Of a stretch of 64,000 bases of DNA, positions 864 to 34,932 are shown one piece after another (position 1 is the stretch's first letter; each line of letters starts with the position of its first letter). The stretch is from Halostella salina (GTDB lineage Archaea; Halobacteriota; Halobacteria; Halobacteriales; Natronoarchaeaceae). Under the pieces are notes generated by a model. That model had not been told where the DNA came from. It searched no databases and worked only from the letters and a program-made list of their open reading frames with translations. The DNA lies in contig NZ_RCIH01000005.1 of NCBI RefSeq assembly GCF_003675855.1, positions 62,001-126,000 on the forward strand, given 5' to 3'. A program made the translations under genes and the position numbers.

Positions 864-1550
864 ATGGGAACGCCGCTCTCGCCGCGCGACGCGCAGGCCG
901 AGACAGTCATCGACCGTCTGGAGGAGGAGTACCCCGACAGCACCATCTCGCTGACCTTCTCGAACCGGCTCGAACTGCTGATCGCGGTAGTGCTCTCGGC
1001 ACAGTGCACCGACGAGCGGGTCAACGAGGCGACCGCCGACCTGTTCGAGGCGTTCGACGACGCCGAAGACTACGCCGCCGCCGACGAGGAGGAGATAAAC
1101 GGCTACATCGACTCGATCACCTACCACAACAGCAAGGCGGGGTACATCAGGGAGTCGGCCGAGATCATCGTCGAGGAGCACGACGGCGAGGTGCCGGACA
1201 CGATGAGCGAACTGACCGAACTCCCGGGCGTGGGCCGGAAGACGGCCAACGTCGTCCTCCAGCACGGCCACGACATCGTCGAGGGGATCGTCGTCGACAC
1301 GCACGTCCAGCGGATCAGTCGCCGCCTCGGGATCACCGAGGCGGAACGGCCCGAGGCCATCGAGCAGGACCTGCTCGACGTGGTGCCCGAGCGAAGCTGG
1401 CAGCAGTTCACCCACCTGCTCATCGACCACGGCCGGGCGGTCTGTACGGCGCGGAACCCGGACTGTGCAGACTGCGTGCTCGCGGACCTCTGTCCCTCGG
1501 AGCAGGGTGACAGCGAGGTCGACCTGGCGAGCGGCGAGCCGTGGGGGTAA
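864..1550 (+). CDS. nth: Endonuclease III (DNA glycosylase/AP lyase)
   Basis: A 228-residue HhH-GPD base-excision repair enzyme that removes oxidised pyrimidines and nicks abasic sites. The helix-hairpin-helix motif LPGVGRKTANVVL contains the catalytic lysine (about K126), the catalytic aspartate is in VDTHVQR (about D145), and the C terminus has the four-cysteine iron-sulfur loop C-X6-C-X2-C-X5-C at about C194, C201, C204 and C210. Length fits the bacterial and archaeal family. The ATG at 864 follows the divergent mvaD start by about 150 bases, which must hold both promoters. All key residues are intact, so activity is expected. Confidence 0.96.
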   Translation: MGTPLSPRDAQAETVIDRLEEEYPDSTISLTFSNRLELLIAVVLSAQCTDERVNEATADLFEAFDDAEDYAAADEEEINGYIDSITYHNSKAGYIRESAEIIVEEHDGEVPDTMSELTELPGVGRKTANVVLQHGHDIVEGIVVDTHVQRISRRLGITEAERPEAIEQDLLDVVPERSWQQFTHLLIDHGRAVCTARNPDCADCVLADLCPSEQGDSEVDLASGEPWG

Positions 1551-1638
1551 CCGTCGCGGACGAACGGCCGTCGCCTCGCGGAACCCGACCAAAACCATAA
1601 CCCGGAGGCCGGTCAACCCCCGTTCGGGGGTACGATCC

Positions 1639-34506: not shown

Positions 34507-34575
34507 CTGCGGTGACTGTCGGTTCTACGTAGCTCGGGGTTCGGGGAGAGCTGTCACTCGAACCCAGCGCGAGTC

Positions 34576-34710
34576 GCAGGAGGTAGATCTGAACAACGCG
34601 AAACGCTCGCTTCGCTCGCGTTTCTCTCGTTCAAACTACCACACGCTACGCTGCGACTTCACGAGACGCTCGGCGATAAAACGCCTCGCTAGGAGGTGAA
34701 GTCGCGAGAA
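34576..34710. repeat. tRNA-derived structured repeat, unit A
   Basis: The unit starts with ggaggtagatctgaac, a slightly changed copy of the tRNA-Met 3' end found at 34859. Two hairpins follow. The first is GGTAG..GAAC (34582-34594) with GTTCAAACTACC (34629-34640), enclosing GAAACGC/GCGTTTC (34600-34606, 34618-34624) and a CGCTCGCTTCGCTCG core. The second is a perfect 10-base stem, GCGACTTCAC (34653-34662) with GTGAAGTCGC (34696-34705), with ctcggcgataaaacgcctcg at 34669-34688 in its loop. No coding frame is plausible. Confidence 0.75.
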
Positions 34711-34857
34711 GTAGCGGGAGGTAGATTTGAACCACGGGAACGTCGCTCGCTACGCTCGCTCGTTCCCAGGTGCAAATCTACTCCGTTCGATGTTTGCCGA
34801 ACCCAGCAGTCACTCGGCGATGAAACGCCTCGTTCGGAAGTTGGTTCGGCAAAAGTA
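34711..34857. repeat. tRNA-derived structured repeat, unit B
   Basis: The unit starts with agcgggaggtagatttgaac at 34713-34732, identical to the end of the tRNA gene at 34859-34878. Its first hairpin pairs GTAGATTTG (34721-34729) with CAAATCTAC (34773-34781), enclosing GGGAACG/CGTTCCC (34736-34742, 34761-34767). Its second is a perfect 11-base stem, TTTGCCGAACC (34793-34803) with GGTTCGGCAAA (34843-34853), with ctcggcgatgaaacgcctcg (34813-34832) in the loop. The loop is shared with unit A but the stem sequence is entirely different, so pairing rather than sequence is conserved. Confidence 0.78.
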
Positions 34858-34932
34858 TAGCGGGAGGTAGATTTGAACTACCGGTCTGCGGGTTATGAGC
34901 CCGCCGGAATCTCCTGGCTATCCCATCCCGCT
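34858..34932 (-). tRNA. Initiator tRNA-Met (CAT)
   Basis: A 75-base gene read on the minus strand. The acceptor stem pairs AGCGGGA with TCCCGCT and has discriminator A; CCA is not encoded. The anticodon loop CTCATAA carries CAT, flanked by GCGGG/CCCGC, which ends in the three G-C pairs typical of initiator tRNAs. The T-arm is GGTAG-TTCAAAT-CTACC. The first pair is A-T rather than G-C, also an archaeal initiator feature. A T-rich tactttt directly after the 3' end (minus strand, 34851-34857) probably ends transcription. Confidence 0.93.

Follow-up and report, generated by a model that had tools for sequence, protein, structure and literature searches.

The nearest known case to the sequences described here is a repeat behind the tyrosine tRNA genes of Escherichia coli (tyrT-tyrV / rttR-tpr; rtT, Rfam RF00391). 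Like the haloarchaeal units, the rtT units stand in tandem behind the tRNA, and the 3' end of this tRNA is copied at the end of each unit. The rtT repeat is confined to one locus and one isotype, consists of nearly identical units of about 178 bp and is annotated as RNA, whereas the haloarchaeal units are seen behind about 20 isotypes and possess freely diverging arms. To our knowledge, the product of rtT is known and its role unclear. Integrons offer a second point of comparison: their cassette arrays likewise consist of modules joined at a short core (G/TTC in the haloarchaeal units). In their attC sites structure is conserved over sequence, as it is in the units; a pair of inverted cores lies at the foot of the attC hairpin, and the proximal copies are the best preserved.

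Haloarchaea themselves harbor several relevant types of elements. Haloarchaeal integrative elements (IGEs; pleolipovirus-like, with SNJ2-type integrases) use the tRNA 3' end as att site, which is restored by the copy they carry (PMC7921747, PMC8371274). Such tRNA-targeted IGEs are far larger than the units, possess an integrase, and contain neither palindromic units nor tandem gene-less arrays. The PATE, SMR and MITE sequences of Haloquadratum are short, non-autonomous haloarchaeal repeats, too; PATEs are palindromic and SMR-A is about 110 bp long, but anchoring to tRNA genes is not among the traits described for them (PMC3119063). A MITE or IS200-IS605 derivative would share its ends with a transposon of the genome and be expected at scattered insertion sites. 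The haloarchaeal matches to the units are located almost exclusively at tRNA 3' ends. Finally, 11 partial tRNAs, several of them adjoining a full tRNA, were recorded in Haloferax gibbonsii LR2-5; the accessible part of that report treats them as remnants and mentions neither units nor hairpins nor inverted copies (PMC7921747).

The array behind the initiator tRNA gene of Halostella salina

The window, i.e. the whole analyzed stretch of 64,000 nucleotides from Halostella salina, contains an initiator tRNA gene followed by two tandem units. Each unit has the same order: a trailer hairpin with freely varying arms (hairpin I), the T-loop segment in inverted orientation (X'), a second hairpin (hairpin II), and a direct copy of tRNA nucleotides T54-73 (X). 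The features are as follows.

34858..34932, minus strand: initiator tRNA-Met (CAT) gene, anchor of the array (ARAGORN; Rfam RF00005, 58.5 bits)
34858..34877, minus strand: X, the copied segment, tRNA T54 to nucleotide 73 (TTCAAATCTACCTCCCGCTA), limits set from 180 units
34712..34857, minus strand: unit B, tRNA-proximal, 146 bp
34793..34853, minus strand: hairpin I of unit B, conserved loop at 34813-34832 between perfect arms of 11 bp (34843-34853 / 34793-34803)
34771..34780, minus strand: X' of unit B, inverted T-loop segment (TAGATTTGCA)
34736..34768, minus strand: hairpin II of unit B, tip GCGTAGC
34712..34731, minus strand: X copy of unit B, matching the tRNA at 20/20 positions, with G53 at 34732
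34574..34711, minus strand: unit A, distal, 138 bp
34653..34705, minus strand: hairpin I of unit A, conserved loop at 34669-34688 between perfect arms of 10 bp (34696-34705 / 34653-34662)
34629..34640, minus strand: X' of unit A, degenerate (GGTAGTTTGAAC)
34594..34628, minus strand: hairpin II of unit A, tip GCGAAGC
34574..34593, minus strand: X copy of unit A, 17/20 identical to the tRNA; array terminus

Units B and A fill the 284 bp downstream of tRNA-Met (towards lower window coordinates) with a repeat spacing of 138 and 146. An earlier note on this DNA had claimed two tandem units after the tRNA 3' end, with a copy of this end that is exact in B and altered in A; both claims are borne out by the measured lengths and identities. 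Its description is right in all essential points; its end point falls about 2 bp short of the array terminus at 34574. The perfect but mutually unrelated stems of 10 and 11 bases reported there are confirmed by their sequences, TTTGCCGAACC/GGTTCGGCAAA for the 11-bp outer stem of unit B and GCGACTTCAC/GTGAAGTCGC for the 10-bp outer stem of unit A. In both units, the 5' arm of hairpin I begins very close to the end of the tRNA. The loop word CGAGGCGTTT(C/T)ATCGCCGAG, noticed earlier as common to the two units, is present in both; the window thus holds two occurrences, where 0.05 would be expected. The GAGCGNAGCGAG tip of hairpin II is likewise far more frequent in the window than by chance. When the array is folded, a check proposed in the earlier note, it scores far better than shuffled sequences (z = -6.4). 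In an Rfam search of the window, tRNA alone was above threshold and RF00391 was absent at the gathering score; against the entire Halostella salina genome, the best hit of the RF00391 model reached 16.7 bits (cut-off 45) and lies elsewhere in the genome.

Distribution within the genome and across Halobacteria

The units are one case of a phenomenon that extends over the Halobacteria. The earlier note missed its scale: half of all tRNA genes in Halostella salina and the majority of genera within the class are concerned. Out of 43 tRNA genes analyzed in Halostella salina, 22 have their own T54-73 segment repeated downstream (15 or more of 20 positions matching, within 220 bp) and one has such a copy upstream. 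The match is at least 18/20 in 19 of the 22 downstream copies, and the isotypes concerned include Arg, Lys, Gly, Met, Thr, Val, Gln, Tyr, Glu, Asp, Ser and Leu. Two further haloarchaeal genomes possess copies behind 15 of 30 and 11 of 30 tRNA genes, with none upstream in either; over the three genomes, the resident tRNA is the best-fitting isotype for the copy in 47 of 48 cases. The corresponding number for a non-haloarchaeal control genome of the same phylum is one in 29 tRNA genes. Among 92 distinct initiator-tRNA loci of Halobacteria, 61 have at least one downstream copy and 22 at least two, while no upstream copy occurs at any of the 92.

The exact loop word is restricted to the tRNA-Met array within the Halostella salina genome, and the unit architecture is independent of this word. 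A search for the word in other haloarchaeal genomes, as suggested in the earlier note, was productive: an exact scan of 84,980 species genomes revealed it in Halorussus, Halosimplex, Halostella, Halorientalis, Haloarcula, Halogeometricum, Halogranum and other genera, the haloarchaeal matches being almost all located directly behind tRNA genes. Another 41 stretches with the loop word are bacterial; none lies near a tRNA, and they are therefore considered chance matches and were rejected as relatives. A signature of hairpin II, GATTTGAA-N26-56-TTCAAATC, is present in 46 of 53 Halobacteria with up to 17 occurrences per genome, compared to 16 of 242 other genomes of the phylum, which always contain a single one; the same pattern reversed, as a control, hardly occurs. 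A tRNA gene lies beside each of the 15 testable haloarchaeal hits of this signature and beside none of four others.

Two observations concern tRNA-like genes. Several haloarchaea possess a tRNA-like gene (GGAAGGGTGGCTCAGTGGTAGAGC ... GGCTTCGCGTGGTTCAAATCCCGCCCCTTCC) whose anticodon region is hypervariable and shows no clear anticodon. As a tRNA it reaches 43-48 bits; it has the same hairpin units behind it and is located at L025 917-997, L028 about 1539-1618 (minus strand), L035 158-243, L059 2940-3044, L013 1205-1304 and L008 1092-1189. Furthermore, the Haloarcula halophila plasmid NZ_CP119561.1 (L384, 1-2499) contains 17 tRNA-like genes, which represent many isotypes and form a tight array, among them a split tRNA-Cys-like sequence; a gene for a TROVE-domain protein lies just past this array.

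Unit anatomy and repeat limits

Haloarchaeal units are 65-189 bp long (median 133 bp). The direct repeat starts sharply at G53/T54 in all isotypes and genomes. Over 180 units, identity to the tRNA falls from 99% at G53 to about 60% over positions 50-52 and to 16% one position further upstream, and on the other side it drops at once from 94% at nucleotide 73 to 53%; identity within the 20-nt X is inflated by the way units were selected, but the drop in the flanks is free of that bias. The limit at G53/T54 is the sole place where all tRNA genes have GTTC in common. At exactly this position, between G53 and T54, the tRNA-Cys-like gene of the Haloarcula halophila plasmid is split by a hairpin pair of the unit type. 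A T-run follows directly after the tRNA.

X' is present (at least 8 of 10 positions) in 179 of 224 units; in the first set, it was found in 112 of 146 units compared to six of 146 with shuffled segments. Double changes that leave X' paired occur at nine positions, against 0.9-2.8 expected, and at ten in the larger set. As to whether X' tracks the copy or the tRNA, these counts are only suggestive, as the anti-T segment was chosen as the best match to either. Ahead of X', the complement of tRNA nucleotides 70-73 appears in 39 of 179 units and in 10 in the control, a weak trend; in the stretch that separates hairpin I from X', the gapped scores for a complementary acceptor end differ little between the own tRNA and other tRNAs. 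The tip of hairpin II conforms to (G/A)CGNAG(C/T), with N free, in 78 of 163 hairpins and in nine after shuffling.

Re-examination of rtT in E. coli MG1655 (L491, 1286700-1288200) reveals that its units also contain the tRNA 3' end in inverted form, GGGGAAGGAT; paired with the direct copy ATCCTTCCCC, it encloses a hairpin domain. The plan X-I-X'-II-X hence exists in bacteria, at one locus. The rtT sequence does not fold better than its shuffles (z = -0.97), though the pairing of X' with X is present.

DNA palindrome or RNA stem

Stem covariation, another check proposed earlier, is strong. The arms of hairpins with the loop word form 8.66 of 10 pairs with their own partner and 5.90 when partners are swapped, no shuffle reaches 6.3, and all four base pairs occur at nearly every position. 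The mismatches are more informative about the level at which pairing is kept. The 1226 stem pairs of hairpin I include 11 G.T and 16 A.C, and the stems of hairpin II eight G.T and 14 A.C; the tRNA stems of the same loci contain 79 G.T and two A.C (Fisher p = 3e-10 for hairpin I vs tRNA stems; a further value for the contrast between hairpins and tRNA stems is 2e-14). Selection for RNA on either strand would favor one of the two wobbles. Neither is favored, which argues for DNA palindromes, kept or born as such, rather than selected RNA. The part of the earlier claim of selection for structure that stands is that pairing is not accidental; selection at the RNA level is not supported by these counts. 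DNA mini-hairpins with a GNA loop and G-C closure are extraordinarily stable, whichever base (A, G, C or T) stands at N (PMC4686876), and the GNA-type tips of hairpin II fit palindromes at the DNA level.

Gain, loss and exchange of units

Comparison of close relatives shows that the arrays change by whole units. One locus (L150) contains exactly one 130-bp unit, with the direct repeat GTAGTTCAAATCTACCTCCCGCTA, which is missing from close relatives in the same genus (L131 and L132); the flanks are 94-96% and about 88-96% identical. A second pair of filled and empty sites is given by L161 and L167, and four relatives in another genus differ in unit content and order. These pairs could also be explained by losses, because recombination between repeats of 20-24 bp deletes a unit exactly. 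In the most revealing case, Haloferax gibbonsii, the strains LR2-5 and ARA6 (plasmids pHGLR2 and pHG2) possess entirely different tRNA-proximal units, while the upstream flank is 99.3% identical and the second units and downstream flanks are nearly identical; the exchange of the first unit runs exactly from the tRNA end to the T54 copy. Apart from plasmids, our strain comparison is based on one complete genome per species. The initiator-tRNA array of pHGLR2 is one of the arrays analyzed here, and the partial tRNAs recorded in this strain are probably the same phenomenon (PMC7921747).

Among 57 multi-unit arrays, the proximal copy is better preserved in 27 and the farthest in six (p = 0.0003), as predicted by growth at the tRNA-proximal end. 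Ordinary unequal recombination acts as well: the tRNA-Ser(tga) array (L412) of one genome (G015) consists of five units, of which units 3 and 4, counted from 0, are near-copies of units 1 and 2, a block duplication. At L127/L128 and L016, tandem tRNA-Asp genes lie 0.5-0.8 kb apart, each with its own unit behind it, as if tRNA and unit had been duplicated jointly.

Hairpins are also shared between isotypes. In genome G015, hairpin I behind tRNA-Leu(tag) and tRNA-Val(gac) is 94% identical over 68 nt, beginning with the first base after nucleotide 73, and the X and X' on either side fit each own tRNA. Val and Ile tRNAs have a common hairpin II at 95% identity or more, and the Gly and Lys tRNAs of Halostella salina share a hairpin II (90% over 48 nt). 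The hairpins have hence moved, with X and X' either adjusted to the gene at the new site or copied from it. Plain insertion of a cassette at T54 would import the acceptor end of the donor; the own-tRNA flanks are therefore the strongest hint against the insertion of a finished cassette, and the Leu/Val case weakens the cassette model that we otherwise prefer.

Origin of the units

The units look like a large family of mobile or recombination-made DNA cassettes that has so far not been described; in the open-access literature, a description of them was not found. We tentatively prefer the interpretation, at slightly less than even probability, that they are gene-less DNA cassettes which pile up at the T-loop by site-specific, integron-like recombination combined with homologous recombination. 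Cassettes would enter and leave at the universally conserved G53-TTC site, and one recombinase cutting at G53/T54 could serve all tRNA genes. This enzyme, probably of the tyrosine class, would read palindromic or folded DNA and not sequence, as the integron integrase reads attC. The tRNA gene would be left intact by the X copy that the cassette carries, and homologous recombination between X copies would subsequently duplicate, delete and shuffle units. The cassettes are probably useless to the cell and may persist because their insertion restores the tRNA.

Several traits of attC recur in the haloarchaeal units, namely inverted core boxes at the foot (X' in 179/224 units), covarying arms and, as in integron arrays, best-preserved proximal copies. 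Since X and X' alternate along the array, every hairpin is framed by inverted cores, like an attC hairpin. The core is GTTCAAATC (GTTCRANTC) as compared to GTTRRRY in the integron R box, and the limit of the units at G53/T54 is compatible with an integron-type cut at G/TT. Unlike integrons, the haloarchaeal arrays have no adjoining integrase gene, their cassettes are gene-less, and they are anchored on tRNA genes. No recombinase could be linked to the arrays: none of the ten PF00589 hits in the genome lies at the tRNA-Met array, and about 43 kb separate this array from the nearest integrase gene on the contig. In the searches made, the units were seen neither as circles nor in a viral or mobile plasmid form, the loop motif was not present in viral contigs, and no unit was detected in phages. 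An origin from viruses or plasmids was also sought by means of the hairpin II pattern. Many viral contigs match it, but those checked look like chance matches (only three of them exceed 53% G+C, and none contains the G+C-rich hairpin or a tRNA), so that this candidate was rejected.

The main rival is fold-back (snap-back) DNA synthesis at the tRNA 3' end, by which the trailer and the T-loop segment would be copied inverted and back. Homologous recombination between X copies would then multiply and rearrange the resulting self-templated palindromes, without a dedicated enzyme. It explains better than the cassette model why X' fits the resident tRNA even where the hairpin is common to another isotype, and it agrees with the complement of nucleotides 70-73 ahead of X' and with the block duplication in the tRNA-Ser array. 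Near-perfect stems in which A.C defects are as numerous as G.T are also what is expected from palindromes that were born perfect and decay. Yet loop words and hairpin II motifs recur over genera and isotypes and so are not local copies, and a limit at G53/T54 that is equal in all isotypes and genomes is too regular for random template switching; on the fixed limit and the recurrent tips this explanation fares worse, and we consider it unlikely. We assign a distinctly low probability to a structured RNA made by tRNA read-through and selected for pairing as RNA, like the rtT RNA of the E. coli tyrosine tRNA operon. Strong covariation of the arms, a fold much better than that of shuffled sequence and the same X'-hairpin-X plan in the annotated rtT RNA speak for this option, which the earlier note had raised, but G.T is no more frequent than A.C in the unit stems, in marked contrast to the tRNA stems. 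Moreover, archaeal transcription is expected to stop at a T-run such as the one directly behind the tRNA, the units are patchily present in sister genomes, and Rfam yields no match above threshold except tRNA.

The earlier note had further suggested att scars, i.e. attR remnants of proviruses or plasmids that repeatedly integrated at tRNA genes and were deleted from them. The classical role of tRNA 3' ends as att sites (PMC8371274) points in this direction, as do the duplicated tRNA ends left by haloarchaeal integrative elements (PMC7921747), and a direct repeat that spans T54-73 with precise empty sites. However, a regular unit size and an inverted X' in most units are unlike deletion scars, and 65-189 bp leave no space for genes or an integrase. 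The hairpins recur behind many isotypes, some being common to several of them, and the searches revealed neither a virus with these hairpins nor, in the many genomes that have them, a full-length parent element. The tie to the tRNA 3' end holds, as does the remark that scars leave the hairpins unexplained, whereas an origin as scars is very improbable; the note's other option, an unknown element, is supported. That one tRNA tail was duplicated in tandem by chance, which the note had named as the outcome that would overturn its reading, has practically no probability left. Unequal duplication does happen in some arrays, but the unit occurs in other genomes, its stems covary, and the class-wide distribution, the anatomy and the controls already refute this explanation.

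A more far-reaching reading seems possible, if somewhat doubtful: as a new class of DNA element, gene-less palindromic cassettes would dock at the universally conserved T-loop (G53-TTC) of any tRNA gene and gain direct and inverted flanks matched to it, moved either by a structure-reading recombinase or by fold-back synthesis, with rtT of E. coli as a bacterial outpost of this process. There is a fair chance that the process behind the units is new.

Implications

For genome annotation, the interpretation proposed here serves as a warning that tRNA fragments behind tRNA genes are not necessarily signs of integrated viruses. If the proposed interpretation is right, a changing array exists at one third to one half of the tRNA genes in the surveyed archaeal genomes, apparently dismissed until now as 'partial tRNAs', and the long-known, odd rtT repeats of E. 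coli would fall within a wider process. The arrays would then provide strain-level markers, and Haloferax a ready system for finding the enzyme. They would represent an archaeal parallel to the cassette arrays of integrons.
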